Of a stretch of DNA of 64,000 bases, positions 1-64,000 are shown in pieces (position 1 is the first letter of the stretch; the number at the start of each line of letters is the position of its first letter). The position numbers were made by a program, and so were the translations under genes. Source of the stretch: Hymenobacter oligotrophus (GTDB taxonomy: Bacteria > Bacteroidota > Bacteroidia > Cytophagales > Hymenobacteraceae); assembly GCF_003574965.1 (NCBI RefSeq), contig NZ_CP032317.1:2046001-2110000 (forward strand). Reading direction: 5' to 3'. A model generated the notes under the pieces. That model had not been told where the DNA came from, searched no databases, and saw only the letters and a program-made list of their open reading frames with translations.

Positions 1-16
1 CCACAACCTCACCACA

Positions 17-988
17 ATGAACACCGACAATAATTCGAACCTGGGCAACACGCCCGGCACCGGCTCTTCTACCAATCCTGCCAACCAAGGTACCGGCGCT
101 GGCGCCGGCTACGGCAGCACTCAGCATTCGGGCAGCGGCTCGATGGGCTCTTCGGGCCTGAACTCTAGCAGCAACATCTCGAACGCCTCGAACACCGGCT
201 CGGGCACCGACCAGAGCACCGGCGCCAACTACAACTCGGGCTCGTCGATGGGCAACAGCAACATGGGCTCGTCGTCGTCGTACAGCACTCCGCAAAACAG
301 CGGCATTGACCCCGACCAGAAACACCACGATTACAGCGCCACCGAGAAAGGCGGCGCAATGGCTGGCGGCCTAGGTGCTGCCGTAGGTCGCGGCGTTGAT
401 GCCGTGCAAAACACCGCCGGCGATGCTGCCCGTGCCGTAACCGGCAACGACAGCACCTACGGCTCGAGCAACCAGTCGGGCCGCATCCTGACCTCGACGT
501 TCCGCGACCGTGAATCGGCTGAGCGTGCTTACAGCTCGCTTTCGTCGCGCGGTTACACCAAAGACGACGTGAACCTGATGATGTCGGACGAAACGCGCAA
601 GACGCACTTCGGCGACCACACCCCCGACTCTGAGCTGGGCAACAAAGCCATGGAAGGCGCAGGCGTAGGTTCGGCCATCGGCGGTACTGCCGGTGCCGTA
701 ATCGGCGCTATCGCAGCCATCGGTACTTCGGTAGCACTGCCGGGCTTGGGCCTGGTAATTGCCGGCCCGCTGGCCGCAGCACTGGCCGGCGCCGGCGCCG
801 GTGGCCTCACGGGTGGCCTGGTAGGCGCCCTGGTAGGCTCGGGCATTCCGGAGGAGCGCGCTGCCGAGTACGAGCACGACATTAAGAACGGCGGCATCGT
901 AATGGGTGTGCGTCCGCGCAACGACGAAGACGCCCGTCACTTCCAAGATGAGTTCCGCCGCCACAACGGCGACCGTATCTACTACTAG
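17..988 (+). CDS. YflT-like general stress protein with Ser/Gly-rich N-terminus and glycine zipper
   Basis: A 323-residue protein of three parts. Residues 1 to about 110 are low-complexity Ser/Gly/Asn/Thr. Residues about 157-192 (ILTSTFRDRESAERAY onward) resemble the YflT / general stress protein 17M domain. Residues about 210-275 are a Gly/Ala-rich hydrophobic zipper, followed by an acidic C-terminus with PEERAAEYEHDIKNGG. Proteins with this middle and end are usually stress induced, with no known biochemical activity. There is no signal peptide. It is a single gene followed by a strong terminator. The Ser/Gly-rich tract echoes the tail of the YtxH protein at 7481-8191, which suggests a shared surface or stress role, but that link is inference. 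The family call is moderate. Confidence 0.6.
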   Translation: MNTDNNSNLGNTPGTGSSTNPANQGTGAGAGYGSTQHSGSGSMGSSGLNSSSNISNASNTGSGTDQSTGANYNSGSSMGNSNMGSSSSYSTPQNSGIDPDQKHHDYSATEKGGAMAGGLGAAVGRGVDAVQNTAGDAARAVTGNDSTYGSSNQSGRILTSTFRDRESAERAYSSLSSRGYTKDDVNLMMSDETRKTHFGDHTPDSELGNKAMEGAGVGSAIGGTAGAVIGAIAAIGTSVALPGLGLVIAGPLAAALAGAGAGGLTGGLVGALVGSGIPEERAAEYEHDIKNGGIVMGVRPRNDEDARHFQDEFRRHNGDRIYY

Positions 989-1012
989 TCGATAACTTAA
1001 GTCGGCTTGCCA

Positions 1013-1045
1013 AAAGACCCTCCCGCAACCGGGGGGGTCTTTTTT
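1013..1045 (+). terminator. Rho-independent terminator after the stress protein
   Basis: The stem pairs AAGACCCTCCC with GGGGGGGTCTT and is followed by a run of T. It lies 25 bases after the stop codon. Confidence 0.85.
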
Positions 1046-1201
1046 GTTACTATGATAGCGGGCCACGCCCGGCACCTAGGGCCGTATTTGGCACTATTGT
1101 GTAGCTGGCCTCGTTAGCAATGCAGAATGGGCGCGGTTTTCGCCATACCATTCGGTGCGGCTTTACGTACATTTAAGACCACTTTTTTCGCGCTTTTGCC
1201 C

Positions 1202-3340: not shown

Positions 3341-3376
3341 GTTTTTTGGCACAGCCTACCTAGGCGGCCTAATACC

Positions 3377-3411
3377 AAAGCCCCCGTGCCAGTGGCACGG
3401 GGGCTTTTTTG
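3377..3411 (+). terminator. Terminator after prc
   Basis: AAGCCCCCGTGCCA pairs with TGGCACGGGGGCTT and is followed by six T. It is a strong, almost perfect stem. Confidence 0.9.
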
Positions 3412-3458
3412 TGTCCATCGGCGGCCGGTAGTTGCCGGTGTTTTCGGCGCTAAATCAC

Positions 3459-3491
3459 TTGGAACAGGCTGATTATCAGCGCCTATTTTTG
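3459..3491 (+). promoter_or_regulatory. Bacteroidota-type promoter of the 3615 gene
   Basis: TTGG at 3459-3462 and TATTTTTG at 3484-3491 (consensus TAnnTTTG) are separated by 21 bases. The surrounding 3460-3580 is distinctly AT-rich. The predicted transcript has a leader of about 120 bases before the ATG. Confidence 0.6.
3469..3479. promoter_or_regulatory. Candidate operator, copy 1 (CTGATTATCAG)
   Basis: An 11-base near-perfect palindrome sits between the -33 and -7 promoter elements, where a bound repressor would block RNA polymerase. The same 11 bases recur at 3527-3537. Confidence 0.5.
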
Positions 3492-3526
3492 TCCCCAAAA
3501 TATTTATCTTATCATCTCATAACACA

Positions 3527-3537
3527 CTGATTATCAG
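3527..3537. promoter_or_regulatory. Candidate operator, copy 2 (CTGATTATCAG)
   Basis: This is an exact repeat of the palindrome at 3469-3479, 58 bases downstream and inside the predicted leader. Two identical sites flanking a promoter suggest cooperative binding or looping. The regulator is not identified. Confidence 0.5.
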
Positions 3538-3614: not shown

Positions 3615-4664
3615 ATGATGACGAACAACGAACAACTGAACGATAACATCCTGCACCTACCGGTTGCCGACGAGGCCCAGCCCCAGCACGATGAGGCATG
3701 GCGCAAGTCCATCCCGGCTCAGGTGTTCTTGAACTACTTCTTCGCGCTCAGCTACCACATCCGCGAGGCCGATGACGCGACGGGGGGCTTGCAGCACCTT
3801 CCTTTCTTCCGGGCACACCAGGCCGAGCTTACCGACGCCGACCGCGCTCAGGTGGAGAAGTACCTGCACAGCTGCTGGAGCACCGAGTACGCTCTGCGTG
3901 CTACCGCCGACCTAGGCGACGAGGACTACCTGCGCAACGCCCTGCACTGGACGTTCCCGCAGGCCTACCACGCCGTGATGGCGGGCTTGCAGGCCTTCTT
4001 GCACACGGCCGGCGTGCGCACTAATAATCCGTCGCTGATTCGCCGCGAGGTGGGCCGCCTGGTAGTGCGCAATGCCTATCCGCGTCCGGTGTCGTTCTAC
4101 GCTGCCGGCTCGTACGGCGACTTCAGCATCCACCGCTTGCCGCTGGCTGGCTACAAGGCCGGGCTGCAGATTGCCAGCAAGGCCATCGACGCACAGGCTC
4201 AGATTGGTCAGTTCCTGCGCACTACCCGCAAGCAGAAGGCAGTAGCCGTGCGTCAGCAGGTGCAGGGCAACCCCACCACGGCTATTCGTAGCCAGAAGAC
4301 CGGGCAGCCGCTCGAGAAGTGGAACGCCCAGCACTGGCAGCAGATTACCTGGCGCCTGGGTTACACCACCATCTTCGACTTGCTGGGCCGCCTGCGCATT
4401 TCGCAGACCAGCCGCGAGATTGAGCGCTACATTGAGTCCGACATCGACTTCGCCTTGTTCCACCACTCGCTGCTCGACATCGTGAGCTACCTCAACGGCG
4501 TTCATGAAACCTACGTGGCCAAAGCCCTAGGTGTGGAGCGCTACCGCGAGCTGGTGGCCAACCTGCCGAAGCACCTGCAGCACGGCTTTGTGGAGGAGCG
4601 CCTACGCACCCGCGTCGAGCCGAACTTCACCGAAACCGATCCGCAGATGGGCATTGCTGCCTAA
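3615..4664 (+). CDS. Unknown, probably all-helical protein; weak HEPN-like segment
   Basis: A 349-residue soluble protein with no signal peptide that I cannot assign. ATG codons at 3615 and 3618 are both possible; a reading from 3579 needs a longer N-terminus without support. The middle (AYHAVMAGLQAFLHTAG followed by about 20 residues with RREVGRLV) resembles the helix pair of HEPN proteins, but no clear R-x4-6-H ribonuclease motif follows, so this is only a suggestion. The sequence is rich in aromatic, His and Arg residues. The gene is monocistronic: its own promoter with twin palindromes lies upstream and a terminator at 4704. That layout suggests regulated expression. Function is unknown. 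Confidence 0.75.
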   Translation: MMTNNEQLNDNILHLPVADEAQPQHDEAWRKSIPAQVFLNYFFALSYHIREADDATGGLQHLPFFRAHQAELTDADRAQVEKYLHSCWSTEYALRATADLGDEDYLRNALHWTFPQAYHAVMAGLQAFLHTAGVRTNNPSLIRREVGRLVVRNAYPRPVSFYAAGSYGDFSIHRLPLAGYKAGLQIASKAIDAQAQIGQFLRTTRKQKAVAVRQQVQGNPTTAIRSQKTGQPLEKWNAQHWQQITWRLGYTTIFDLLGRLRISQTSREIERYIESDIDFALFHHSLLDIVSYLNGVHETYVAKALGVERYRELVANLPKHLQHGFVEERLRTRVEPNFTETDPQMGIAA

Positions 4665-5247: not shown

Positions 5248-6810
5248 ATGCACCACCTCAGCGAACAGGAGCTGATTCGTCGGCAGAAACTCGACGAACT
5301 CCAAAAGCTCGGCATCGAGCCGTACCCGTCCGAGCTGTTCGACGTGAACTTCTACGCCCAGGAAATTCACGATAACTACCACCCCGAGCTCAACAACTTT
5401 CAGGAAGTGCGCCTGGCGGGCCGCCTGATGTCGGTGCGGGTGAAGGGCAAGGCCTCGTTTGCCGAACTGCAAGACGCCTCGGGCCGCATTCAGCTCTACA
5501 TCAACCGCGACGAGATTTGCCCCGGCGAGGACAAGGAGCTGTACAACACCGTGTTCAAGAAGCTGCTCGACCTAGGCGACTTCATTGCCGTGGAGGGCCA
5601 CGTGTTCAAAACGATGGTGGGCGAAACCTCGGTGCACGTTACTAGCTTCAAGCTGCTCTCGAAAGCCCTGCGCCCGCTGCCGGTAGTAAAAGAGCGCGTA
5701 GACGAGGCAACGGGTGAAAAAATCACCTACGATGCCTTTACCGACCCTGAGCAGCGCTACCGCCAGCGCTACGTTGACTTGGTGGTGAACCCGCACGTGC
5801 GCGACGCCTTCGTGAAGCGTACGCTGCTGGTGCAGGCCATGCGCAACTACCTCAACGACAAAGGCTACCTGGAGGTAGAAACCCCTATTCTGCAGCCGTT
5901 GTACGGCGGGGCCGCGGCGCGTCCTTTCAAAACGCACCACAACACCTTGGACATGACGCTGTACCTGCGCATTGCCAACGAGTTGTACCTGAAGCGTCTG
6001 ATTGTAGGCGGGTTCGATGGCGTGTACGAGTTCTCGAAGGACTTCCGCAACGAGGGCATGTCGCGCTTCCACAACCCCGAGTTCACCCAGATGGAGCTGT
6101 ACGTAGCTTACAAAGACTACTACTGGATGATGGACTTGGTGGAAGAGATGGTGGAGCGCGTAGCGCTGGTCCTGCACGGCCAAACCGAGGTGAAGGTGGG
6201 CGAGAACATCATCAACTTCCAGCGCCCCTGGAAGCGCTTCACCATGGCCGAAGCCATTGAGCACTACACCGGCTTCAACATCGAAGGCAAGAGCGAAGAC
6301 GAACTGCGCGCCGCCGCCAAGGACCTGAAAGTGGGCCTCGATCCCAGCATGGGCAAAGCCAAGATCATCGACGAGATTTTCGGGGAGCACGTGGAGCCCA
6401 AGCTGATTCAGCCCACGTTCATTACCGACTACCCCGTGGAAATGTCGCCGCTGGCGAAAAAGCACCGCTCGAAGCCGGGCTTGGTAGAGCGTTTCGAAGC
6501 CATCTGCAACGGCAAAGAAATCTGCAACGCCTTCTCGGAGCTAAACGACCCCATCGACCAGCGCAAGCGTTTTGAGGACCAACTGGAGCTGGGCAAGCGC
6601 GGCGACACCGAAGCCATGGTGCTCGATGAGGACTTTCTGCGCGCCTTGGAGTACGGCATGCCGCCCACGGCTGGCCTAGGTATCGGCATCGACCGCCTCT
6701 CGATGATCATGACCAACTCGCACTCGATTCAGGACGTGCTCTTCTTCCCGCAGATGAAGCCGGAGAAAGCGGAAACCCTAACGGAAAAATCGGAAAAGCC
6801 GGTAGAGTAA
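5248..6810 (+). CDS. lysS: Lysine--tRNA ligase, class II
   Basis: A cytoplasmic enzyme that charges tRNA-Lys with lysine using ATP. The start at 5248 ([18 protein letters not shown]) matches the family N-terminus and gives 520 residues, close to the usual 500-520. An OB-fold anticodon-binding domain occupies about residues 55-165. The class II core follows with motif 2 ([14 protein letters not shown], about 278) and motif 3 ([12 protein letters not shown], near 490). The C-terminus after residue about 507 is a short Lys/Glu-rich tail. The gene is single, with a TATCTTTG promoter element and a large hairpin directly after its stop. Confidence 0.97.
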
Positions 6811-16452: not shown

Positions 16453-16758
16453 CCCGTACGGCCTGGCCCTAGGTGCGCTAGCAGCACCCGCAACCTAGGA
16501 TGCCGACTCAAGCAGTACCCGTTCGCGCACGTGCGGCTCCAACTCAACTGCTTCGCGTGCCCGTCATGACGAGCCCCGTAGAGACATCTCGCGTGCTCCG
16601 CTCGACATGACCGTTATGAGGCGCGACACAACGGGCTCGGTTTACTGCAACGAAAGCGGGAGTTGCTCCGACAAGCAGGCGCCGGATGTGAAGCATGCCG
16701 TGCAAGGGGCAATTGCTGTATTGCCTAATGCTTCTGCCTTTTGATCTAATTAAGCGAC
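16453..16758. other. Intergenic region with CCTAGG pair and a decayed palindrome
   Basis: These 306 bases hold no gene. Two CCTAGG copies lie at 16468 and 16493, and a degenerate intergenic palindrome at 16563-16611. No terminator was found after the hydrolase gene. No other signal was seen. Confidence 0.6.
16563..16611. repeat. Degenerate copy of the GTCAT-CGAGC palindrome family
   Basis: GTCATGACGAGC and GCTCGACATGAC form the ends, with GAGACATCTCGCGTGC between. It is a shortened relative of the elements at 26240, 37185 and 56857. Confidence 0.55.
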
Positions 16759-19109: not shown

Positions 19110-19168
19110 GCCGCGCCGCCCTAGGTGCCGAGGCACCCAAGACGGCGCGGCACCTAGGGCGGCGCAGC
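19110..19168. repeat. CCTAGG-paired inverted repeat
   Basis: The left arm 19110-19130 and right arm 19148-19168 are inverted copies matching at 19 of 21 positions. Each contains GCCGCCCTAGGTGCCG or its complement. It lies between the methyltransferase start and the TerB-like gene end. Confidence 0.75.
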
Positions 19169-19796: not shown

Positions 19797-21929
19797 TTAC
19801 ACCTCGTCGCTGAGCACGGCCACGGCTTCGCGCAGGGTCAGATCCTTGCGCAAGGGCTGCACAAAGCGGTTGGTGCGGTTGTTCTGCACGCTATCCGCAG
19901 AGGTGGCAGCACCTAGGGGCGCCACGGCCAGCACGGGGGCTTGCTGCTGCACTTGCTTGTAACGTTCGGTGGCTTCTTGCAAGGCTTTCTGCTCGGCGCG
20001 GTAGGTGGCGAGGTTCAGCGAGGCCAGCGTTACCTTTTCGCGCTTGGCCATGTTTTGCACGGCATCGGTGAGCAGGCCAAAAGCTTGGTTGGAAGCTACG
20101 CGCTGCTTGCTGGCCGCGGCCAGCTTGGCCACGGGCGGCGCCGCCGGCCACGGACGGTAGTTGGCCGGCGCAATTTCATCCCATGGCAGCGGGTAATCGG
20201 TGTCTTGCTCGCCTTCGGCCAGGGTGCTGTAGGCATCGGGTACCACAATGTCGGGCGTTACGCCCTTGAACTGCGTGGAAGCGCCGTTTACGCGGTAGTA
20301 TTTCTGAATGGTCATCTTGAGCGAGCCGAAGGGCTTGAGGGCCGCCAGTTCGGGGTTCATGATGTTATCCAGCTCGAACACGCGCTGCACCGTGCCCTTG
20401 CCGTAGGTGGTGTTGCCGAGCACAATGCCGCGCTTGTAATCCTGAATGGCACCGGCCAGAATTTCCGAGGCCGAGGCGCTGTAGCGGTTTACTAGCACCA
20501 CCAGCGGGCCGCCGTACTGCACTTTTGGGTCGGGGTCGGTTACGACTTCGGGGGTGCGCTGCCGGCCCTTCACCTGCACCATGGGGCCGCTTTCCATAAA
20601 CAAGCCGGCCATTTCGGCGGCGTCGTAGAGCGAGCCGCCGCCGTTGAAGCGCAAATCGAGCACCACGCCCTGCACGTTTTCGGCCTTCAGCTTCAGCAGC
20701 TCCTTTTTCACGTCTTCGGCCGAGTTGCGGCCGCCGCTCTGGTTGAAGTCGGCGTAGAAGCTGGGCAGCAAAATGTAGCCAAACTTCTTACCGCCCTCGT
20801 TGATAACGGCCGATTGCGCGTAGGTTTCCTCAATCACCACCACGTCGCGGATAATCGGAACGACCTTCACGGTAGCGTCGGGCTTTTTCACCGTCAGGCG
20901 CACTTCGGTGCCCTTCTTGCCCCGAATCAGGCCCACCACTTTATCGAAGCGCATGCCATCCACGGCCACGGGCTCGGCGGCGCCTTGGGCCACGCGCTGA
21001 ATCACGTCGCCGGCCTTCAGCTCGCCCTGGCGGTACGCGGCCGAACCGGGCACAATGTAAGCCACCACAATCTGGCCATCACGCTCGCTGAGTTGCGCGC
21101 CGGTGCCCTCGAGGCGGCCCGTTACGGCCAGGTCGAAGTTCGTTTTATCCTGCGGCGCAAAGTACTCGGAGTGCGGGTCGAAGGTGTTGGCCACGGTGTT
21201 GGCAAACTCGGCCAAGCGGTCGGCTTCGTCGGTTTGCAGCAGGTCCTGGAAACGCTCGTCGTAGTACTTGAGCACTTGCTTGCGGGCTTCGGCTTCCATT
21301 TGGGCGGGCGTACGCACCGGCTTCGAGATAACCGCACCGGAGGGCTCTGCTTTGGTAGAGGCCAGCGACTTCGTTTGCTGCCGGTCTTGCTCGTCCATCA
21401 TTTCGGCCACGCGCACCATGGTTTGGTACTTCAGCAGGCGGCGCCACATGTCGCGGCGGGCGGCTTCGTCGGCTGGGTAGCCAAGTTTATCGGAGTCGGT
21501 TTCGAAAGTTTCGTTGGCCGTGAACTCGAAGGGCGTGCTCAGCAGCTCGCGGTACAGCAGCTGCGCCTCGCGGGTGCGCTGATCGATGAGCTTGGTGCTG
21601 AGGTCGAGAAATGCGTGCTTGCCTTGCTTGATTTCGTTGTCGATGAGCTTTTCGTAGGCTTCCAGCTGCTTCACATCGGGCTGCAGCAAAAATTTCTTGC
21701 TGCCGTCGAGGCGCTTGAGGTACAGCGCGTACACCCGCCGCGAGAGTTCGTCGTCGAGCTGCGTGGGCTGCACGTGGGCCAGGGCCAGGCCTTGCACTAC
21801 CGTGCTCAGTAAAATCTCTTTTTTCTGGGGCGGTACATCGCCGGCAAGGCGCTCCGAGCCCGGAGGCATAAAAAACAGAAAGCCCGGCAGCAAAGCCGAG
21901 TACAGACTTAGGGAAGATCGAAACGCCAT
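19797..21929 (-). CDS. prc: Prc/tail-specific protease (S41), second copy
   Basis: A 710-residue paralogue of the protease at 1202-3340, with the same domain order and about the same length. The start at 21929 (MAFRSSLSLYSALLPGFLFF) gives an N-terminal signal or anchor; reading from 22106 adds 59 residues of poor quality. The PDZ segment is IVAYIVPGSAAYRQGELKAGDVI. The catalytic serine lies in RYSASASEIL and the lysine in TTYGKGTVQ. The C-terminal domain ends LREAVAVLSDEV. The two copies are clearly homologous along their length but have diverged, and the gene neighbourhoods differ. No CCTAGG occurs between 19912 and the 5' end. Redundancy or distinct substrates cannot be told apart here. Confidence 0.92.
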   Translation of the reverse strand: MAFRSSLSLYSALLPGFLFFMPPGSERLAGDVPPQKKEILLSTVVQGLALAHVQPTQLDDELSRRVYALYLKRLDGSKKFLLQPDVKQLEAYEKLIDNEIKQGKHAFLDLSTKLIDQRTREAQLLYRELLSTPFEFTANETFETDSDKLGYPADEAARRDMWRRLLKYQTMVRVAEMMDEQDRQQTKSLASTKAEPSGAVISKPVRTPAQMEAEARKQVLKYYDERFQDLLQTDEADRLAEFANTVANTFDPHSEYFAPQDKTNFDLAVTGRLEGTGAQLSERDGQIVVAYIVPGSAAYRQGELKAGDVIQRVAQGAAEPVAVDGMRFDKVVGLIRGKKGTEVRLTVKKPDATVKVVPIIRDVVVIEETYAQSAVINEGGKKFGYILLPSFYADFNQSGGRNSAEDVKKELLKLKAENVQGVVLDLRFNGGGSLYDAAEMAGLFMESGPMVQVKGRQRTPEVVTDPDPKVQYGGPLVVLVNRYSASASEILAGAIQDYKRGIVLGNTTYGKGTVQRVFELDNIMNPELAALKPFGSLKMTIQKYYRVNGASTQFKGVTPDIVVPDAYSTLAEGEQDTDYPLPWDEIAPANYRPWPAAPPVAKLAAASKQRVASNQAFGLLTDAVQNMAKREKVTLASLNLATYRAEQKALQEATERYKQVQQQAPVLAVAPLGAATSADSVQNNRTNRFVQPLRKDLTLREAVAVLSDEV

Positions 21930-22168
21930 GATTGAGAGCGTAGCTAAAGCGTGAGAAAGCAGCCCGGGGTTGCGGCAGCTCGGGGCCGGGCCGCGGCGCA
22001 AGCCATACCTTTGGGCTTTGCCATGAAGAACACGCGTAGCCAACCTGAGTTGCACGCGTGGGCGGCACAATATGCAACCGGCCGCGGTATTGGCCCCCAG
22101 GCGCACGCACTCCTTTTTGGCGGCGGCCCCAGGTGCGCATGGTGCCTGCTGACAATCAACACCTTGCC

Positions 22169-22588
22169 ATGCCCGGCCAAACCAACCTTGCTGAGCTGCT
22201 CCGCACCCTCCGGCCGGCCCTGCAGCCCGGCACCTACGTATTTTGCACCGTGCGCAGCCTCAGCGGCATCAACCCCGACGATGTATTGTGCCTGTTCCGC
22301 GAGCAGGAGGGCCTCACCGTAATTCTGCCGCAAACCGCCGCCGATGCCCTAGGTCTCCCCTACACCTTCGTGGCCCGCTGGATTAGCCTTACTGTGCATT
22401 CGGCGCTCGAGGCCGTAGGCCTTACGGCGGCTTTTGCCACGGCGCTTACGCAAGCCGGCATCAGCTGCAACGTGGTAGCGGCTTATTACCACGACCACCT
22501 GTTTGTGCCCACTGCCGATGCCGAGCGCGCCCTCGATGTGTTGCGGCAGCTATCGGCCGGGGCAGCCCTAGGTGGGCAGCGGCCGTAA
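22169..22588 (+). CDS. ACT-domain protein
   Basis: A 139-residue cytoplasmic protein made of two ACT-type repeats. Residues 1-65 match the ACT_3 pattern (NLAELLRTLRPALQPGTYVFCTV, FREQEGLTVILP), and the C-terminal half is an ACT_7-like repeat (FATALTQAGISCNVVAAYYHDHLFVP). ACT domains bind amino acids and act as sensors or regulators; no catalytic domain is attached. The ATG at 22169 is preferred to that at 22139 because it begins the conserved region. TACCTTTG at 22006-22013 could be its promoter, with a long leader. The 3' end carries one arm of a CCTAGG hairpin. Confidence 0.8.
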   Translation: MPGQTNLAELLRTLRPALQPGTYVFCTVRSLSGINPDDVLCLFREQEGLTVILPQTAADALGLPYTFVARWISLTVHSALEAVGLTAAFATALTQAGISCNVVAAYYHDHLFVPTADAERALDVLRQLSAGAALGGQRP

Positions 22589-22721: not shown

Positions 22722-23657
22722 ATGCACCTGTACGTTTACACCCTGCTCGACGACACGCTTCGCTCCCGCCTTCGGGCGCAGCTTCCCGCCGACGTGCAGG
22801 TATTCTTCCGCAACGAGCTACCCGACGAGCAGCAGTTGCCCAGCTTTCAGTCGGCCAACGTAATCTTGGGCAACCCGCCGGCCGCTTGGTTTGCCGATGC
22901 TCCCCCGCCCGCGCTGCAGTTCTGGCAAATTGATTCGTCGGGCTTCGAGCAGTACACCGGCTTGCAGCTGCCCGTGCCCGTGGCCAACATGGGCGACTAC
23001 TTTGCCTGGCCTTGCGCCGAAAGCATAGTGGCCGGCATTATGGCGCTGTACCGCAACCTGCCGCAACTGGCGCTGCTGCAGGCCGAAAAGCGTTGGGTGG
23101 GCCCGCCCGTACGCGCCAACATGCAGCTCATGCGCCACAAGCGCGTGGTTGTGCTAGGTGCCGGCTACATCGGCCTGGCGGTGCGGCAACAGCTGTCGGG
23201 CTTTGGCTGCCACACGCAGCTGTTGGCCCGCACCAGCCCCGAGGCCCAGCTCCGCTCGCCCAAAGAGTTAAAAGCCGTGTTGCCCGACATTGATTTAGTT
23301 ATCAACTGCCTACCCGGCACTGCCGAAGGCTTTTATTCCGCCGAGCTAATTGCGGCCATGCAGCCCGGCAGCGTGTACGCCAGCGTAGGCCGCGGCAACA
23401 CCACCGACGAGCCCGCCCTTATTGCCGCCTTGCAGACTGGCCACCTAGGCGGCGCCGTGCTAGATGTAACCGCCGTGGAGCCCCTGCCCGTGGACAACCC
23501 GCTCTGGAGCATGCCCAACGTCATCCTTACCCAGCACTCCGCCGGCGGCCAACCCGATGAGGATGGTGGCAAGGTGGATATGATTCTGCTGAACCTAGGG
23601 CGCTTCCGAAATGGCGAGCCGCTGGAGAGTTTGGTGGATGTGGCGCGGGGGTATTAA
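22722..23657 (+). CDS. D-2-hydroxyacid dehydrogenase family protein
   Basis: A 311-residue NAD(P)-dependent oxidoreductase. The start at 22722 (MHLYVYTLLDDTL) fits; an ORF extension upstream overlaps the ACT gene and is rejected. The Rossmann motif GAGYIGLAVRQQL is at about residue 144. The catalytic residues are Arg in VGRGNTTDE (about 227), Glu in VEPLPVDNP (about 257) and His in TQHSAGG (about 275). It is in the same family as glyoxylate/hydroxypyruvate reductases, and the substrate is not predictable. It is followed at 23658 by the AT-rich region. Confidence 0.87.
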   Translation: MHLYVYTLLDDTLRSRLRAQLPADVQVFFRNELPDEQQLPSFQSANVILGNPPAAWFADAPPPALQFWQIDSSGFEQYTGLQLPVPVANMGDYFAWPCAESIVAGIMALYRNLPQLALLQAEKRWVGPPVRANMQLMRHKRVVVLGAGYIGLAVRQQLSGFGCHTQLLARTSPEAQLRSPKELKAVLPDIDLVINCLPGTAEGFYSAELIAAMQPGSVYASVGRGNTTDEPALIAALQTGHLGGAVLDVTAVEPLPVDNPLWSMPNVILTQHSAGGQPDEDGGKVDMILLNLGRFRNGEPLESLVDVARGY

Positions 23658-23686
23658 ATAATATTACCCCGATGAGTCTAAGTTGA

Positions 23687-24541
23687 TCAGACAGGAGAAT
23701 AAAATTTATTAACTCCGTAAACGTAATCATCAATATGCCCTATCCCTGATTTTTGACAGGTTATCTCAAATCCATTATTTATTAAGAAATCAGATATATA
23801 TTCTTTGGTTTTATAGAATTCATTGCCATCAACTCGATACCTAAAGTCATGACACGAAATAGCCACTCTTTTAATCTTCTTGAGATTGTCTTTTGAAATT
23901 GAATCGACAACAAATCTCTCTGCTCCTTCAATATTTGACTTCAACAAATCAATTTTGTTAATATCACGTTCTTTAAAGAACGTATCTACTCGTTTGCCTT
24001 GCACTATATAGCCATTATTTCCATTATTTTGCTGAATTGACCCCGCCAAGTACGAATCAGCATCATCAATCAGGCTAATATCTTCATCAGCTGAACTAAT
24101 GGCGATATTATGCAACTCAACGTTATTTAAACAATTTTTCTTGACTATCGTCTGCAAAACATTATACACTTTGGGGTTAGCTTCGATTGCATATATTTTG
24201 CCAGTTTGCCCCACTCTGTTTGAAAGAACCAGTATCTCTTCACCCATACCCGCGCCTATATCCAGTACAAAATCACCCTCTTTTACCTCGTACCCGTAGA
24301 GCGCAGTTGAGTCACACCAATCTTCAAAACCTTTATATGTAATTGGCCAGTGCAATGCCTGTGAAGGAAGAAATTTATCATTTACTTTATAAACAAAGAA
24401 TCTATCATTAAATAAACTAGTAAATCCATGTAAGTTCTGATGATTAAGCTTAAATAATGGCTTCAATACTATGTACCTATAGTAATCCCATTTAATCAGC
24501 TTCATCGACTGCATCAATAGTTTTAGTATGACCTTTTTCAT
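23687..24541 (-). CDS. FkbM-family methyltransferase, AT-rich
   Basis: A 284-residue protein. Residues about 86-120 show the SAM-binding DIGAGMGEEILVLSNRVGQ, then IYAIEANPKVY, and near residue 200 DLLKSNIEGAER, the FkbM pattern (E-A-N and K-x-N-I-E-G-A-E). FkbM enzymes O-methylate sugars or polyketides, often in surface polysaccharide clusters. The DNA is strikingly AT-rich, with codons AAA, ATT and TTA, against high-GC neighbours. No CCTAGG occurs between 23594 and 25597. Both signs point to recent transfer. There are no other cluster genes nearby, so it is an isolated insertion. Confidence 0.88.
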   Translation of the reverse strand: MKKVILKLLMQSMKLIKWDYYRYIVLKPLFKLNHQNLHGFTSLFNDRFFVYKVNDKFLPSQALHWPITYKGFEDWCDSTALYGYEVKEGDFVLDIGAGMGEEILVLSNRVGQTGKIYAIEANPKVYNVLQTIVKKNCLNNVELHNIAISSADEDISLIDDADSYLAGSIQQNNGNNGYIVQGKRVDTFFKERDINKIDLLKSNIEGAERFVVDSISKDNLKKIKRVAISCHDFRYRVDGNEFYKTKEYISDFLINNGFEITCQKSGIGHIDDYVYGVNKFYSPV

Positions 24542-25259
24542 GGATTTTAAAATGAGGAAAGATTATGTTCGCTAGAAAGAAACTAGAAACGCTTTAGTGG
24601 CCTAAGGTAACGAAGTAACGTAATAATATACACTACATCATATATTAAGTATTATTCTTTGCAATCTGTATTACCAGTTTTGATAGTGGCGCAACCTATG
24701 GATTAGCCGTACTAACGGGCATGAAAGCCCTTTTCTACTGTGGCGCACCCAAGTTGCGAAAACGCGGCCTGCTCCGAAATTACAAGCTACACCATTGCTT
24801 TTTTGTAACCGGCGTACGAATCGGCCCATTCCAGGCACTTACCAATGCATACGACGAGGCGCGCAGGTTTGCTTACTATCAGGTTACGCGCTGTGGCCGG
24901 GCGAACCGCAACGCGTGCGTCCTCAGGTACAGCAGTGGTACCCTGCTCTACGTTCCGGGCCAGTGGGTTCTTTTCCTCTAAGAGTGGTGGCGCCGCAGTC
25001 GGAACAAGTTACCATCTACTGCTTACGCAAGTCAGCGCGGTTGAACCACTCACGAGATTCGATGTATACCATTAAGGTTTTGCTACCTATAATCGGAATT
25101 AAATGTAACTGATCATTAGGACAACATGTTTAAGTAGCCAGTGTATTACTGTGAAAATCAAAGTAATGCAATATGGTTTTTACACTATCGAAAATTAGAA
25201 ACACGAATAGCAATTGATTGCCTCTATACTACGCCGCAATTCTTGTTTGTAAAGGCACA
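24542..25259. other. Long intergenic region without a supported gene
   Basis: About 720 bases: AT-rich at the two ends and higher in G+C around 24720-25060. Several reading frames of 60-105 codons overlap in different frames on the plus strand, but none has a recognisable domain, codon bias or start context. It may be decayed coding sequence beside the acquired FkbM gene. No RNA gene was seen. Confidence 0.5.
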
Positions 25260-25297
25260 GAAAAGCCCGACCTCACCGGCCGGGCTTTTGTTTTTAA
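25260..25297 (-). terminator. Terminator after fabI
   Basis: On the minus strand, AAAAGCCCGGCCGG pairs with CGGGCTTTT-type bases and ends in T-rich sequence. Confidence 0.75.
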
Positions 25298-25312
25298 CTA
25301 AGGGTAAGAAGA

Positions 25313-26140
25313 TTAAGCTTCCTTGGTAGCGTGGGTAATGGCCTCCACCATGGCCTCCGAAATACCTGTGGTGCTGAAGCCACCGTCATGCATCAGGTTT
25401 TGCATGGTTACGTAACGGGTCAGGTCCGAGAACAGCGATACGCAGTAATCGGCGCAAGCCTCGGCCGGGGCGTTGCCCAGCGGCGAGAGGCGGTCGGCGT
25501 ACTCGTAAAAAGCGTCGAAGCCGCTAATGCCGGTGCCGGCCGTGGTTTTGGTGGGCGACTGCGAGATGGTGTTTACGCGCACCTTCTTTTGGGTACCTAG
25601 GCGCTGGCCGTAGCTACGGGCAATACTCTCGAGCACGGCCTTGGCCTGCGACATATCGGTGTAGTCGAGGAAAGCGCGCTGGGCCGCGATGTACGACAGG
25701 GCTACTACCGAGCCCCACTCGTTCAGGGCGTCCTGCTTCTCGGCCACGTGCAGCATCTTGTGGAACGACAGCGCCGAGATGTCGAGCGTCTTCTGGAACC
25801 AGTCGTAGTTCAGCTCTCCGTAATGCTTGCCTTTGCGGATGTTCGGGCTCATGCCGATGGAGTGCAGCACGAAGTCGATTTTGCCGCCCAGTTGCTCCAC
25901 CGCGCCGCTGAATACTTTCTCTAGGTCTTCAACAATAGTGGCATCGGCCGCAATGATCGGAGCATTGCACTGCTCGGCCAGCTTGTTGATTTCGCCCATG
26001 CGCATGGCGAGGGGCGCGTTGCTGAGCACAAACGTAGCGCCTTCTTCGTGGCAGCGCTGGGCTACCTTCCAGGCAATAGATTGTTCGTTGAGCGCACCGA
26101 AGATGATGCCGCGCTTGCCGGCAAGTAGGTTGTTGGCCAT
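25313..26140 (-). CDS. fabI: Enoyl-[acyl-carrier-protein] reductase (FabI)
   Basis: A 275-residue cytoplasmic enzyme that reduces trans-2-enoyl-ACP with NAD(P)H in the last step of each fatty acid elongation cycle. The start at 26140 (MANNLLAGKRGIIFGALNEQS) is the family start. The NAD-binding turn GALNEQSIAW is at about 14-23, and the catalytic Tyr-x6-Lys is in LDYTDMSQAKAVLE (about residues 157-164). The C-terminus has NLMHDGGFSTTG, typical of FabI. The length matches the usual 260-280. TATTTTTG on the minus strand (26183-26190) is the likely promoter, with a 40-base leader. Confidence 0.95.
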   Translation of the reverse strand: MANNLLAGKRGIIFGALNEQSIAWKVAQRCHEEGATFVLSNAPLAMRMGEINKLAEQCNAPIIAADATIVEDLEKVFSGAVEQLGGKIDFVLHSIGMSPNIRKGKHYGELNYDWFQKTLDISALSFHKMLHVAEKQDALNEWGSVVALSYIAAQRAFLDYTDMSQAKAVLESIARSYGQRLGTQKKVRVNTISQSPTKTTAGTGISGFDAFYEYADRLSPLGNAPAEACADYCVSLFSDLTRYVTMQNLMHDGGFSTTGISEAMVEAITHATKEA

Positions 26141-26190: not shown

Positions 26191-26239
26191 GGGTTTCGGC
26201 CCGAACGTGATGTTTCGCTCTGCTCGCGAAATAAAAAGA

Positions 26240-26343
26240 ACGTCATTCCGAGCGCAGCCGAGGAATCTCGCGTGCTGACGTCGGATAGCAATCTACTATC
26301 TGACCAAACATGCAAAACTCCTCGACTGCGCTCGGAATGACGT
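26240..26343. repeat. Intergenic palindrome, GTCATTCCGAGC family
   Basis: The left arm 26240-26264 (ACGTCATTCCGAGCGCAG) and right arm 26319-26343 are inverted copies with one mismatch in about 25. The centre carries GGAATCTCGCGTGC. It lies between the fabI promoter and the recN end. Confidence 0.8.
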
Positions 26344-26358
26344 TCAGTAGAACAGGGT

Positions 26359-39294: not shown

Positions 39295-41322
39295 TTAGCT
39301 CCGGAAAAATGCTTGCAGCTGATCGAGCTCCAGCATTACGAGGGTGCGCTGGCCATCGGGCGTGTAGCCGGGCGTTTGGCAGGCAAACAGCTTATCGATA
39401 AGGGCCGTCATCTCCACTTCGCTCAGGCGAGTTGCGGCCGAAGCGGCCACGCGGCGGGCCAGACTGCGGGCCAATTGCTCGCGGCGGTCGAGGCGGGCGC
39501 GCACGCCCGGCATCCGAAATTGCTCGAGCAGGCCCTCGAGCAATTCTTTCTCGTTGGCGCGGCTGGGTACGTCGGAGGGCAGGCCTTCCACCACAATGGT
39601 GTTGGGCCCAAACTCCGAAAACCGAAACCCTAGGTCGTGCAGCTCGGTGGTTACCTCGCGCAGCACGGCAAAGTCGCCGGGCGAAAATGCCACCGTACGC
39701 GGAAAGAGCAGCGTTTGCGAGGCGCTGCTTTCCTCGGCAATCTGCTGCTGGTACTGCTCGTACAAAATTCGCTCGCGGGCCGCAACGTGGTCAATCATCA
39801 TCAGCCCCGATTTTACAGGCACCAGCACGTACTGCTGCACCTGCACCACCCGGCGGCTGGGCATGGCGCCCGGCGCCGCGGCGCCGCCCTCGGCTGCGCC
39901 GGTGCTGGGGCCGTGCGTAAGCGGCAGCTCGGGCGAGGCCGGTGCCGCGGGGGCCGCTTGCACGGCGGGCACCGGCGGCAGCACCGGAATGGCGGGCAGT
40001 GGCTCGGGTTTGGCATCGGGCGCTTCGGCCTCAATGTCGTCGAGGGCGCCGGGTTGGCTTAGGGTTTTGTAGAAGTCTTCCAGGGCCTTACGGGCTTGTT
40101 CGGTGGGGCGCGGCGTCAGGGGTTTTTCGTCGGTCCAGCGGGCGGCTTCGCGCGTGGGCCGGGCCGGTGCGGCAGCGGCGGCCATGGCGGCGGCCAAAGC
40201 CCCGCCTTCGTGCCCTAGGTCGCGGTGGTGCGCGGCATCGTCGGCATCGGCAAAGTCTGAAATCGAGCCCGTGCGCAAGCCCGCCAGCGGAGCAAAGTTC
40301 ACATTGCTTTCGAAGTCCAACGACGGTGCCATGTTGTGCAGACCTAGGGCCTGCTTAACGGCGGCGCGCACAATGGCGTAAACGGTTTTCTCGTCCTCGA
40401 ACTTGATTTCCGTTTTCGTTGGGTGCACGTTGATGTCGATGGTCTTGGGGTCGAGCTCCAAAAACAGCACGTAAAACGGGTGCGTCTCTTTGGGCAGCAG
40501 GCCCTCGTAAGCCGCCAACACGGCGTGGTTGAGGTAGGCCGAACGGATAAAGCGCCCGTTTACGAAGAAAAACTGGTCGCCGCGGCTTTTCTTGGCCGAT
40601 TCGGGCTTGCCGATGTAGCCTTTTACCGAAATAAACGGCGTAACCTCCTCAACTAAAGCCAACTGCTCTTTGTAGCTATTGCCTAGCAAGGCCACCACGC
40701 GCTGGCTTAGCTTGCCGGCGGGCAGGTTAAACACCTCCAGGTCGTTTTGGTACAGCGAAAAGCTGATGCTCGACTTCGACAAGGCCACGTGCTGAAACTC
40801 GTCGAGGATGTGGCGCATTTCCACCGCATTGCTCTTCAGAAAGTTGCGACGCGCCGGCACGTTAAAAAACAGGTTTTTCACGGCGATGCTGGTGCCATCG
40901 GGGCAGGCCGTGGGCTGCTGGCTTACCACCTGCGAGCCTTCTACCAGCAGCTGCGTACCGGTATCCTGGACCTGCAGCTTCGATTTGATTTCTACCTGCG
41001 CCACGGCCGCAATCGAGGCTAAGGCCTCGCCCCGGAAACCTAGGGTACGAATCCGAAACAGATCCTCAGTGGTGCGGATTTTACTTGTGGCGTGCCGCTC
41101 CAGGCTCATGCGCGCATCCGTCGCCGACATACCCGAGCCGTTATCAACCACTTGCACCAGCTGCTTGCCGGCCTCCTTTACAATGAGCTGAATTTGGGTG
41201 GCGCCGGCATCCACGGCGTTTTCCAGCAGCTCTTTCACCACCGAGGCCGGGCGCTGCACCACCTCGCCGGCGGCAATCTGGTTGGCTAGGTACTCGGGCA
41301 GCAGTTGAATGATATCGGACAT
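39295..41322 (-). CDS. mutL: DNA mismatch repair protein MutL
   Basis: A 675-residue GHKL ATPase. The start at 41322 (MSDIIQLLPEYLANQIAAGEV) is unambiguous. Motifs: VVKELLENAVDAGAT (I), DNGSGM (II), TLGFRGEALASIAAV (III). The N-terminal ATPase domain ends around residue 335. A low-complexity Ala/Pro/Glu linker (about 350-470) is longer than usual, and the C-terminal dimer domain (about 480-675) includes QYVLVPVKSGLMMIDHVAARERILYE. The C-terminal metal motif DQHAAHERI appears as DHVAARERI, so endonuclease activity is doubtful. TACCTTTG on the minus strand at 41369-41376 is a good promoter element. Confidence 0.95.
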   Translation of the reverse strand: MSDIIQLLPEYLANQIAAGEVVQRPASVVKELLENAVDAGATQIQLIVKEAGKQLVQVVDNGSGMSATDARMSLERHATSKIRTTEDLFRIRTLGFRGEALASIAAVAQVEIKSKLQVQDTGTQLLVEGSQVVSQQPTACPDGTSIAVKNLFFNVPARRNFLKSNAVEMRHILDEFQHVALSKSSISFSLYQNDLEVFNLPAGKLSQRVVALLGNSYKEQLALVEEVTPFISVKGYIGKPESAKKSRGDQFFFVNGRFIRSAYLNHAVLAAYEGLLPKETHPFYVLFLELDPKTIDINVHPTKTEIKFEDEKTVYAIVRAAVKQALGLHNMAPSLDFESNVNFAPLAGLRTGSISDFADADDAAHHRDLGHEGGALAAAMAAAAAPARPTREAARWTDEKPLTPRPTEQARKALEDFYKTLSQPGALDDIEAEAPDAKPEPLPAIPVLPPVPAVQAAPAAPASPELPLTHGPSTGAAEGGAAAPGAMPSRRVVQVQQYVLVPVKSGLMMIDHVAARERILYEQYQQQIAEESSASQTLLFPRTVAFSPGDFAVLREVTTELHDLGFRFSEFGPNTIVVEGLPSDVPSRANEKELLEGLLEQFRMPGVRARLDRREQLARSLARRVAASAATRLSEVEMTALIDKLFACQTPGYTPDGQRTLVMLELDQLQAFFRS

Positions 41323-41727: not shown

Positions 41728-44706
<2,979 letters not shown>

Positions 44707-50630: not shown

Positions 50631-50675
50631 GTGCTGCCTAGGTGCCCATGCCCCGCGGAGCCACGGCACCTAGGG
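50631..50675. repeat. CCTAGG-paired inverted repeat
   Basis: TGCCTAGGTGCC (about 50635 on) is mirrored by GGCACCTAGGGCA (50663-50675) around a GC-rich loop. It lies between the ABC ATPase end and the permease start. Confidence 0.7.
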
Positions 50676-60611: not shown

Positions 60612-60721
60612 AAAGCGGTGTTGGGGTTGAGGAAGAAGGAAAAAAACAGAATAGCACAGGTTGGCGCTTGAAAAATAGGCTTTTTAGCCACAAGCCCAAC
60701 TATTTCCTTTTTAGGTACAGC

Positions 60722-61636: not shown

Positions 61637-61692
61637 GAGCAACGGGTATTTCGTCCAAATTCTAACCTAAATAGCGTATTTTAGCTGTTCCG

Positions 61693-61722
61693 TTTGGTAG
61701 CGGAGCGCTGGCTATACTTTCG
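61693..61722 (+). promoter_or_regulatory. Promoter of the 61748 gene
   Basis: TTTG (61693-61696) and TACTTTCG (61715-61722) are separated by 18 bases, close to the Bacteroidota consensus (one mismatch). Confidence 0.55.
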
Positions 61723-61747
61723 CCTTCTGTTCCCTTTAGTTGAATCC

Positions 61748-63019
61748 ATGAGTTTTCATCTGCGTTTTATCCTGTCGCTGCTCGTGGCACTTGGCTTGCG
61801 GCTGGCCTTGCCTAGCTTGGCAGCCGCCCAAAAGGCCGACACGACGAAGCGCAACGCGCCCATTCGCAACATTCAGCTCGAAAACGTTGATGTGGCTCCT
61901 GGTGCTGTGGATACTAAGGGCTGGTTGCTGCTCGACAAAGACATTCAGTTGGAGCTCGACGGGGCCGTGCGCAACCTCTACAACTTCAAGTACGACAAGG
62001 CCGAAAAGCAATTTCGTTCGCTGCGCCGCCGCTACCCCAACCACCCCATGCCCTACTTCCTCCTCGGCCTCAGCCAGTGGTGGAAGATCATGCCCACTAA
62101 CATCCAGACTACGCTTCACGACCGGCCGTTTTTCGCCTACATGGACACGGCCATCGTGAAGGCCGAAAAACTTTACGAGCAGGACAACCGCAATTACGAG
62201 GCTTGCTTTTTCCTGGCGGCCTCTTACGGATTCGATGCCCGCCTGAACGCCGAGCGCGCCAACTGGCGCAAGGCCACGGTATCCAGTAAACGCTCCTTGA
62301 AGTATCTCGAACTAAGCAAGGAAGCCAACGGCCTGAGCCCTGAGTTTCTATTCGGTCAGGCCTTGTTTAACTATTACGCCGTCTGGATTCCGGATAATTA
62401 CCCGCTGCTCAAACCCGTGCTGCTGCTTTTTCCGAAAGGCAACAAGCAGCTGGGCCTGCAACAGCTCCGCAACGTGGCCGACAACGGCGTGTACGTGGGC
62501 CCGGAGGCCAAAGTGTTTCTGATGCGCATCCTCAACAACGAGGAGAACAACCCCACGGCCGCCATGCCGATTGCGCGCTCGTTGGCCTCCAATTACCCTG
62601 ACAACGGGTATTTTCAGCGCTTCTACGCCTTGCTGTGCTTCAACGAAGGCGAGTTCAGGGAATGCGAACGAGTTAGCCGCGAAATCCTCGACAAAATCAA
62701 TCGGGGGTTTCCGGGGTATGAGGGCATCAGCGGCCGCTATGCCACCTACTTCCTAGGTTGGCTGATGCAGAACAAGTACAAGGACATCAACAAGGCCAAA
62801 GAGTACTACCAACGCTGCATCGTATTTGCCGAAAGCACCAACGAAACCAGCGGCGGATTTTACCTCTACGCCAACCTTAACCTTGCCCGCATCGCCGATA
62901 AGGCAAAGGAAGTAAAAGCGGCCCTGCGGTACTACGCCGTAGTTCGCGACAAAGCCGACCGCAAAAGCGAGCAGTACCGCGAGGCCAAGGCTTACCTGAA
63001 GAAGTACAAGAAGGGCTGA
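61748..63019 (+). CDS. Secreted TPR-like protein of unknown function
   Basis: A 423-residue protein with a signal peptide (LVALGLRLALPSLAAAQ). The rest is helical with TPR-like repeats: YKFDKAEKQFRSLRRRYPNHPMP (with natural variants), FLAASYGFDARLN, KYKDINKAKEYYQRCIVFA and AALRYYAVVRDKAD. Charged Lys/Tyr-rich helices fill the C-terminus. No catalytic motif was seen. The start at 61748 gives the signal peptide; the ORF from 61694 adds none. The next gene starts 25 bases after the stop, so the two may form an operon, for instance for surface polysaccharide or gliding functions, but that is inference. Confidence 0.72.
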   Translation: MSFHLRFILSLLVALGLRLALPSLAAAQKADTTKRNAPIRNIQLENVDVAPGAVDTKGWLLLDKDIQLELDGAVRNLYNFKYDKAEKQFRSLRRRYPNHPMPYFLLGLSQWWKIMPTNIQTTLHDRPFFAYMDTAIVKAEKLYEQDNRNYEACFFLAASYGFDARLNAERANWRKATVSSKRSLKYLELSKEANGLSPEFLFGQALFNYYAVWIPDNYPLLKPVLLLFPKGNKQLGLQQLRNVADNGVYVGPEAKVFLMRILNNEENNPTAAMPIARSLASNYPDNGYFQRFYALLCFNEGEFRECERVSREILDKINRGFPGYEGISGRYATYFLGWLMQNKYKDINKAKEYYQRCIVFAESTNETSGGFYLYANLNLARIADKAKEVKAALRYYAVVRDKADRKSEQYREAKAYLKKYKKG

Positions 63020-63044
63020 TTGCCGGCCGCTCACCTAGGGAACC

Positions 63045-64000
63045 ATGGAGCTGAAAGACCTTTTTTTGACGCCGCTGTACCTAGGCATTTTGTACGGCAT
63101 TGCTTTCGCTCTTCGCAAGCGTTACACCAACGCACTTACACGCCGCTACTTTATTCCGGCCCTAACGGTCAAGTTTATCGGCGCCATCGGCCTGGGCCTA
63201 ATTTACCAATTTTACTACGGCGGCGGCGACACCTTCAACTACTTTTCGCACGTGAAGGTGGTGCACGAAGCCTTTGGCAATTCATTCGGTACCGGGCTTA
63301 AGCTCTTGATGGCTCAAACCCCACCCGATGGCGACATGCTGCGCTACACTATGCGCATGTACTGGTATGAAGCTCCTACCGAGTACTTCATTGTACAGAT
63401 AGCCTCGGTATTTTCGTTGCTGTGCTTTAATAGCTATGCCGTTATCGCGCTTTGCTTTGCCTTCGTAAGCTTTTGCGGCATGTGGGCGATGTACGTTACC
63501 TTCCTGAGAATTTATCCGCTAGCTTACAAAAAGCTAGCTATTGCCGTGTTCTTCTTGCCGTCCGTGTTCTTCTGGGGTTCGGGCCTCATGAAAGATTCGC
63601 TGTGTATCGGCGCTCTAGGCTGGACGTTCTACGGATTCTACCACTTCTTTATTGCCAAGAAGAATCTAACCACGGCAGCTCTGCTCGGCGCCCTAGGTGC
63701 ATACATCCTTATCTCTGTTAAGGTGTATATCCTGCTGTCTTTTCTGCCGGCGGCCCTTATTTGGGTGTTCACCGAAAACAACCGGCGTATTAAGTCTGCT
63801 GCATTGCGCACGTTGCTTAAACCGCTGTTTTTGGGGCTAGGCGTGGCCGCGGGTTATTTTGGGGCTACCAACCTTACCGCCGGCGATGAAAAATACGACG
63901 TAGACAAGTTAGGTGAAAGGGCTAAAATCACCCGTGATTACTTAACCACGTACGTAGCCAGCGGCTCGGTTTATAACATTGGTGAGTTCGATGGCTCGTT
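63045..64000 (+). CDS. Multi-pass membrane protein, cut by the window end
   Basis: At least 318 residues are visible, open to the last base with no stop. Start MELKDLFLTPLYLGILYGIAF at 63045. At least eight hydrophobic segments alternate with short loops, including FFLPSVFFWGSGLMKDSL (a motif I associate with some polymerase- or glycosyltransferase-like membrane proteins), LLGALGAYILISVKVYILLSF and FLGLGVAAGYFGA. This arrangement suggests a polysaccharide polymerase or similar transmembrane enzyme, but I cannot name the family. It lies 25 bases after the TPR-like gene and is probably co-transcribed. Confidence 0.7.
   Translation, partial: MELKDLFLTPLYLGILYGIAFALRKRYTNALTRRYFIPALTVKFIGAIGLGLIYQFYYGGGDTFNYFSHVKVVHEAFGNSFGTGLKLLMAQTPPDGDMLRYTMRMYWYEAPTEYFIVQIASVFSLLCFNSYAVIALCFAFVSFCGMWAMYVTFLRIYPLAYKKLAIAVFFLPSVFFWGSGLMKDSLCIGALGWTFYGFYHFFIAKKNLTTAALLGALGAYILISVKVYILLSFLPAALIWVFTENNRRIKSAALRTLLKPLFLGLGVAAGYFGATNLTAGDEKYDVDKLGERAKITRDYLTTYVASGSVYNIGEFDGS

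Follow-up and report, generated by a model that had tools for sequence, protein, structure and literature searches.

CCTAGG in the Window and the Genome

The stretch analysed here (the window) comprises 64,000 nucleotides of Hymenobacter oligotrophus (contig NZ_CP032317.1, positions 2,046,001 to 2,110,000) and is densely occupied by the hexamer CCTAGG. The first-pass annotation had described it as a highly iterated palindrome, present in about 90 copies where about 20 were expected, with HIP1 (highly iterated palindrome 1) of cyanobacteria as its closest known analogue. Our count is 89, against expectations of 20.3 from base composition and 12.5, 11.6 and 16.6 under Markov models of orders 1, 2 and 3, and CCTAGG scores highest when all window hexamers are ranked under the order-3 model (z 17.8). 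The maximal-order (4) expectation is as high as 71.8 because that model is fed by CCTAG and CTAGG (101 copies each), which are mostly CCTAGG. CTAG itself occurs 142 times, 53 of them outside CCTAGG. About half of the copies had been said to share one longer form, and ACCTAGGG or its complement is indeed found at 50 of the 89 sites (27 and 23). The sites are spread along the window and the chromosome (Table 1); the site-free intervals 19912-22348 and 23594-25596, also pointed out earlier, are real.

The excess extends to the rest of the source genome (G000; other genomes are labelled with G-numbers and sampled stretches with L-numbers). In its 4,188,814 bp (four contigs) there are 5678 copies of CCTAGG, one per 738 bp, and 67 of the reversed word GGATCC; ACCTAGGG is present 2980 times (1493 forward and 1487 reverse), its reversed controls 0 and 1 times. 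A 464 kb chromosome sample that includes the window contains 699 CCTAGG (order-2 expectation, 87; order-3, 147), and order-3 rankings of all its 6-, 7-, 8- and 9-mers place CCTAGG, ACCTAGG, ACCTAGGG and ACCTAGGGC on top. A second sample of 400 kb that does not overlap the first contains 559 copies with the same flanks. The excess is real and strong, and is not accounted for by chance, codon usage or repeats. Other words are strongly avoided in the 464 kb sample: GATC (424 versus 1055 expected), ACTAGT (7 versus 30) and TCTAGA (3 versus 11).

The Repeated Unit Is Asymmetric

While the CCTAGG core is palindromic, the unit that is repeated is not, contrary to the first-pass description. At 81 of the 89 window sites, A is present on exactly one side, which defines an asymmetric unit ACCTAGGV; 46 of these units lie on the plus and 35 on the minus strand, and the other 8 sites have A/T on neither or both sides. 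With strands merged, the flanks of the 699 sites of the 464 kb sample are A..G (366), A..C (216), A..A (45), C..C (22), G..C (18), A..T (18), C..G (8), C..A (3) and G..A (3), so that A is found on at least one side in 645 and A..V in 627. Since about 157 A..T sites would be expected under independent flanks, a left A and a right T are nearly mutually exclusive. T was gained after ACCTAGG at 1/88 per lineage versus about 0.08 elsewhere (few events), and ACCTAGGT looks disfavoured in context.

When the 81 oriented sites are aligned, no column exceeds 0.16 bit apart from the ACCTAGG core and the base that follows it; there is no conserved sequence beyond the word, unlike in a dispersed repeat or mobile element. 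One-mismatch forms of ACCTAGGG occur at 0.27-2.66 times the order-2 expectation for positions 1-7 and at 4-12 times for position 8.

Placement in Genes and Intergenic DNA

Coding statistics were built on our own open reading frame calls, not on curated genes. In the 464 kb sample, 249 of the 699 sites fall between genes and 450 within them, at 32.4 and 11.6 per 10 kb respectively, so that intergenic density is 2.8 times as high. Intergenic density is 44.9 per 10 kb between convergent, 29.1 between co-directional and 23.1 between divergent genes. Genic sites are oriented sense in 184 cases, antisense in 209 and neither in 57; because the two orientations, like the forward and reverse octamers, are near equal, the signal lies at the DNA level, not at that of RNA. 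No replication polarity was seen in the octamer counts or in the correlation of orientation with GC skew (-0.28, 20 samples), unlike for Chi and FtsK orienting polar sequences (KOPS), which are asymmetric short words found genome-wide.

Reading frames of the 450 genic sites are NNC-CTA-GGN (x-Leu-Gly) in 420 cases and CCT-AGG in 30. CTA makes up 4.7% of the 12,930 leucine codons that do not precede Gly and 64% of the 649 that precede Gly and follow a C-ending codon. Synonymous occupancy is high: CCTAGG is present at 183 of 229 [YHND]-Leu-Gly positions and 234 of 825 other Leu-Gly positions whose preceding codon can end in C, at none of 194 K/E/Q/M/W-Leu-Gly positions, and at 30 of 367 Pro-Arg positions (0.3 expected). 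At sites with a left base other than A, the preferred Gly codon becomes GGT (86% of 528 versus 20% of 1453, three genomes pooled). In the full context, CTA accounts for 814 of 1037 leucine codons and is favoured about fiftyfold; in core contexts without exactly one A/T flank, it accounts for 91 of 455, still a 4.1-fold preference over CTG. All-or-none recognition was dropped in view of the latter figure.

Occupancy of free positions does not vary systematically with codon optimality; its lowest values are those less than 100 bp from a neighbouring site (about 19/29 [YHND]-Leu-Gly and 28/156 other positions). Density saturation (Elhai) was rejected, there being no steady fall of occupancy with nearby sites beyond 100 bp. 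In the first sample, the sites were under-dispersed, with a variance/mean of 0.79 at 1 kb and 0.36 at 20 kb; the second gave 0.80-0.84 at 1-5 kb and 1.90 at 20 kb, where it includes the motif-poor block L285, and L129-L135 gave 0.99-1.68 at 1-10 kb. Regular spacing is thus not upheld by the second sample at 20 kb or by L129-L135, and only the deficit of close neighbours remains.

Near Confinement to the Chromosome

The word is nearly confined to the chromosome. Three small plasmid-like contigs of G000 contain 3 CCTAGG in 84.9 kb, and two small contigs of the relative G004 contain 6 in 60 kb sampled. On the small G000 contigs, CTA in context is at background (3/60; elsewhere 0.060). Chromosomal segments that align to neither G004 nor a further relative, G025, carry 1 site/13.0 kb, and those aligned to both carry 14.2 per 10 kb. 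Either new DNA lacks the word through slow accumulation, or only the chromosome is subject to the bias. One such island, at about 2116099-2127675 of G000:C1 (L129; 11.6 kb, GC 0.457), aligns to neither relative and has one CCTAGG. Block L285, with 7 sites in 20 kb, contains the Type I restriction locus of G000.

Distribution among Relatives

We counted ACCTAGGG in 204 genomes of the family (G000-G203; sets of 150 and 120 genomes with 66 in both). More than 300 copies were found in nine; the next highest count is 90 (G149). Among the eight genomes of the window's genus, G000, G004 and G025 have 2980, 3106 and 2808 copies and the remaining five between 8 and 20. The larger sister genus (120 genomes) has its high counts in G184 (2746), G137 (2643), G156 (988), G195 (979), G079 (896) and G058 (337). 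In a sample of 296 genomes from the phylum, in which G000 is the only one of the nine high genomes included, G000 alone has more than 1000 CCTAGG, and the other 295 have at most 734. We also compared named recN loci (the best 80 of 566, 3 to 22 kb each, own and nearest records excluded), among which those closest to the window's own recN locus come from Hymenobacter species. CCTAGG density is 15.2 per 10 kb in H. setariae, 9.2 in H. crusticola, 4.6 in H. fodinae and at most 2.8 in the rest; H. setariae and H. crusticola may coincide with some G-numbered genomes.

High genomes differ in the flanks of the word. Compared with order-1 expectation, the G000 dialect consists of ACCTAGGG (316, expected 8.1) and ACCTAGGC (191, expected 12.1); G184 and G137 share these words and add CCCTAGGC. 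In G195, the favoured words are ACCTAGGT (32, expected 0.8) and ACCTAGCT (45, expected 2.6), as in G156 and H. crusticola, and in G058 CCCTAGGG (39, expected 1.9). ACCTAGGT and CCCTAGGG are palindromic, unlike ACCTAGGV. The G079 sample is a single 13.6 kb contig. The constant element across dialects is CTAG, whose overall count relative to expectation is 0.21-0.42 in three low genomes and 0.65-1.45 in strong ones. No other iterated words of comparable strength were seen in 20-60 kb samples of the low genomes G035, G152, G030, G020 and G010. As can be seen, the excess recurs in relatives but only sporadically, and close relatives lack the word or carry differently flanked versions of it. In Hymenobacter sp. 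CA2-7 (L239; 21.7 kb), GGCTAGCC occurs 12 times versus 0.9 expected, without CCTAGG, and is a possible further dialect.

Gain and Loss of the Word

A three-genome alignment was made of 204 kb of G000 with G004 and G025 (143,281 three-way hexamer positions; 88 to 90% identity among the three in the window). CCTAGG is common to all three genomes at 101 places. It is missing only from G000 at 20, from G004 at 37 and from G025 at 24, and is present in one genome only at 23, 16 and 45, respectively. Low relatives kept the aligned word at 1/42 (G010), 0/44 (G030), 0/27 (G035) and 0/18 (G015) places.

Leucine codon triples in the full context have CTA in all three genomes in 66 cases, in two in 24, in one in 11 and in none in 7; the corresponding numbers elsewhere are 12, 58, 376 and 3398. 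A two-state reversible fit gives faster gain (9.4-fold, 6.0-15.4) and slower loss (0.118-fold, 0.074-0.183) in the coding context relative to CTA elsewhere, with a ln ratio of 4.38. At equilibrium, the odds of CTA in the full context are raised 50-fold versus CTG, 68-fold versus CTC, 50-fold versus CTT, 112-fold versus TTG and 27-fold versus TTA; CTA is thus equally favoured over transition and transversion neighbours, which fits a bias on the finished word. The flanking T is protected where CCTAGG is present in all three genomes: GGT after xC-CTA-GG is lost at 0.018 per lineage versus 0.34 elsewhere.

A Proposed Bias on the Finished Word and Its Alternatives

We propose that ACCTAGGV, a HIP-like word found genome-wide, owes its high copy number to a bias that acts on the chromosome, on the double-stranded word once it is nearly complete, at any place where coding permits; we hold this tentatively, at a little short of an even chance. 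The bias would be one of fixation, with a tiny and roughly equal advantage per site of a scaled size of about 4, and may be exerted through a putative reader that recognises specific DNA sequence and takes part in recombination, repair or chromosome handling. The flank preference of such a reader would differ between lineages, and DNA methylation would not be needed. A wider proposal, which we consider doubtful, is that the Hymenobacteraceae possess a chromosome-wide CTAG-core code with ACCTAGGV, ACCTAGST, CCCTAGGG and possibly GGCTAGCC as dialects. It would be written by fixation bias, and its reader would be a DNA-binding system, evolving fast and independent of methylation, that distinguishes the chromosome from plasmids or foreign DNA or else steers recombination.

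Several observations weigh against a fixation bias on the word. No reader protein was found in this analysis, and plasmids and islands could be poor in the word only because they are recent arrivals. Aligned intergenic sites show 25 changes versus 31.9 expected (0.78), codon positions one and two 21 versus 26.4 (0.80) and third codon positions 79 versus 157.5 (0.50), far from the near-immunity predicted by a bias of size 4. In G004, losses outnumber gains (37 versus 16), and the fitted gain and loss are each about twice the values of the standard fixation formula for one S. Occupancy is somewhat lower near gene ends, where the first tenth has 11/17 [YHND]-Leu-Gly positions filled, and also in the bin of 700-1000 bp (10/15). 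Finally, in a strict event count, small in number, all 8 gains, out of 19 opportunities and with 1.57 expected, are transitions at the third codon position, and no third-position transversion to the word was seen in 71 opportunities (2.17 expected), a set that includes non-synonymous changes.

Transition-only gains would suit a transition-specific repair bias, that is, a mutation or repair process turning the neighbours CCTGGG and CCCAGG into CCTAGG. The hardly reduced intergenic loss points the same way, as does the finding that, at 14 of 19 single-genome window sites, one or both of the other genomes read CCTGGG or CCCAGG. We nevertheless regard such a process as quite improbable: in context, CTG shows no depletion relative to CTC (odds ratio 1.36, p 0.10), loss in the codon context is slowed, the preference falls about 12-fold when there is not exactly one A/T flank, and no effect is seen on the plasmid-like contigs, which share the cell. 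Codon usage, an RNA-level signal, a dispersed repeat element or chance has nothing in its favour beyond the excess itself and is scarcely credible, given that the enrichment extends to two reading frames, to both orientations and to intergenic DNA, that the flanks beyond the octamer hold little information and that the second sample replicates the first.

An orphan methyltransferase coupled to methyl-directed mismatch repair has been proposed for cyanobacterial HIPs (Elhai 2015), and a methylation role was also suggested in the first-pass annotation. In the available portion of PMC4390886, cyanobacteria with highly over-represented words are said to possess a putative methyltransferase that could modify these words, and HIP1-rich genomes without a CGATCG enzyme are also recorded. 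We searched 24 genomes (9 high or medium and 15 low) for four methyltransferase families and found no cognate enzyme among them that would explain the word: PF00145 is present in 2 of the 9 high genomes, PF01555 in 4 and PF02086 in none, and the closest family, PF02384, in 8 (not G025) but also in 13 of the 15 low genomes. An MT-A70 search gave no matches, and its control also matched nowhere. By PADLOC models, the methyltransferase of G000 (PF02384, its sole family of the four) matches Type I models, is followed by a specificity subunit and sits in the motif-poor L285; that of G025 (PF01555 only) is Type II-like, with a restriction enzyme of Type II next to it; that of G184 (PF02384 only) is Type IIG-like. 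To judge from these sequence searches, and unless they missed it, a driver inherited by the whole G000-G004-G025 clade would lie outside the four families. Separate high genomes could use separate enzymes; even so, the methylation role gains no support, and we rate this explanation as quite improbable.

The word might also mark self DNA for transformation, with fragments that carry it preferentially taken up or recombined, as in the DNA uptake sequences (DUS) of Neisseriaceae and the uptake signal sequences (USS) of Pasteurellaceae, through non-pilus machinery. Its asymmetry, DUS-like density, intergenic excess, some inverted pairs and near absence from plasmid-like contigs all fit. Its dialects share a core, as Neisseriaceae DUS dialects share CTG (PMC3630211, part of the text), and a competent species of Flavobacteriaceae, Riemerella columbina, is reported in the accessible text of PMC7965970 to prefer its own DNA. 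We think such a drive unlikely. The platform gene of type II secretion or type IV pili (T2SSF, PF00482) was found in 0 of the 24 genomes, while the control matched in 13 of 14, and one-mismatch forms reach at most 2.7-fold at positions 1-7, versus about 10-fold for DUES in the part of PMC1939737 consulted.

Further Features of the Window

Coordinates are collected in Table 1. Several sites form head-to-head pairs, which may be hairpins or phased sites for a dimer. Across 584 kb of G000, CCTAGGTGCC-N-GGCACCTAGG pairs peak at 33 bp (6 of 20 head-to-head pairs at most 80 bp apart), with one at 32, one at 34 and four at 26 bp. Outside the window, such pairs lie in G000 (L010 4513, L011 6967, L013 9253 and 17688, L014 11025, L131 9948) and G004 (L071 13400); the spacers look unrelated.

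Table 1. CCTAGG sites and associated features, in window coordinates
Feature	Position	Remark
CCTAGG starts (89), first part	370 1075 3359 3911 4526 4837 4901 5043 5571 6675 7207 8300 8541 8948 9674 10172 10265 11763 13550 13706 13761 15849 16468 16494 16980 17460 17765 18741 19120 19153 19693 19912 22348 22567 22610 23444 23594	
CCTAGG starts (89), second part	25596 26882 28078 28271 28729 29185 30190 30241 30482 32721 33917 34025 34352 35650 35756 36058 37674 37968 39287 39629 40214 40343 41039 41889 42207 44848 46859 47365 47562 48601 48835 49196 50637 50669 52238 52612 53054 53347 54992 55666 56162 56663 57973 58402 59593 60073 60175 61182 62752 63034 63080 63692	
Site-free AT-rich segment	23661..25260	GC 0.388; aligned to neither G004 nor G025
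Site-free 2.4 kb stretch	19918..22347	unremarkable, because about 3 such gaps are expected (exponential, mean 720 bp)
Head-to-head CCTAGG pair, 26 bp apart	16468..16499	
Head-to-head pair CCTAGGTGCC ... GGCACCTAGG, 33 bp apart	19120..19158	predicted RNA hairpin of -46.1 kcal/mol with flanks
Head-to-head pair CCTAGGTGCC ... GGCACCTAGG, 32 bp apart	50637..50674	
Turnover example	4355..4360	CCTGGG in G000 and G004, CCTAGG in G025
Turnover example	6675..6680	CCTAGG in G000 and G025, CCTGGG in G004

Named by their Pfam domains, mutL (39295-41322, minus strand) and a recN-like gene (26359-28038, minus strand) lie in the window, with no demonstrated tie to the word. A repeat of about 110 bp (about 26233-26345) matches itself on both strands and has dozens of dispersed matches in several genomes of the genus. 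One reading frame (41728-44706, plus strand) combines a glycoside hydrolase family 3 domain with a beta-lactamase-family domain.

Relation to Known Words and Significance

The CCTAGG word resembles HIP1 (GCGATCGC), as an asymmetric, dialect-forming variant. Like HIP1 and alternate HIPs, it has a palindromic core, a very high copy number far above Markov expectation at about once per kb, sites in coding and non-coding DNA and lineage-specific replacement words. The analogy drawn in the first-pass annotation is retained together with the iterated word; the palindromic unit is given up, and the methylation role gains no support. Unlike HIP1, whose listed extensions stay palindromic, the Hymenobacter unit is asymmetric, its host belongs to the Bacteroidota and is not a cyanobacterium, and a cognate methyltransferase was not found among the families tested. 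Since two tested HIP features, the palindromic unit and the cognate methyltransferase, failed, we speak of a HIP1-like variant rather than HIP1 proper.

According to the text available for PMC6604393, HIP1 occurs once per 1131 bp in Synechocystis 6803 and, citing Xu 2018, is maintained by selection. The accessible part of PMC4390886 lists an asymmetric word, cACCGGCa, in Oscillatoria PCC 10802 that is not a HIP1 extension; the main text of that paper, on HIP1 and alternates, mentions neither CCTAGG nor Bacteroid. The literature found on highly iterated palindromes, as far as its text was available, deals nearly all with cyanobacteria, and no report of CCTAGG as an iterated word in Hymenobacter was found in the literature searched, most subscription papers being outside its coverage. 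The title of a 1982 paper by Korba and Hays on phage lambda recombination is said to contain CCTAGG, with no bearing on this genome.

DUS and USS are likewise asymmetric words with constant-core dialects, present in thousands of copies on both strands. They differ in that the Hymenobacter core is near-palindromic and has no one-mismatch halo at positions 1-7, and in that our word is sporadic within genera whereas DUS dialects follow phylogeny (PMC3630211, in the part available). CCTAGG is also the site of the Type II enzymes AvrII and XmaJI, and GCCTAGGC is under-represented in E. coli (both from the portion of PMC1939737 at hand). Restriction sites tend to be avoided. CCTAGG is over-represented here, and no enzyme of that specificity was identified.

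HIP1 was reportedly described by Robinson et al. in 1995. The excess of CCTAGG reverses the usual avoidance of CTAG, and the iterated-word phenomenon is here separated from the tested methyltransferase families, the leading explanation. High relatives are 88-90% identical and low ones about 81% in alignable DNA, yet their octamers number about 3000 versus about 10; with such a difference between close relatives, the gain, the loss and the gene behind the word are mappable.

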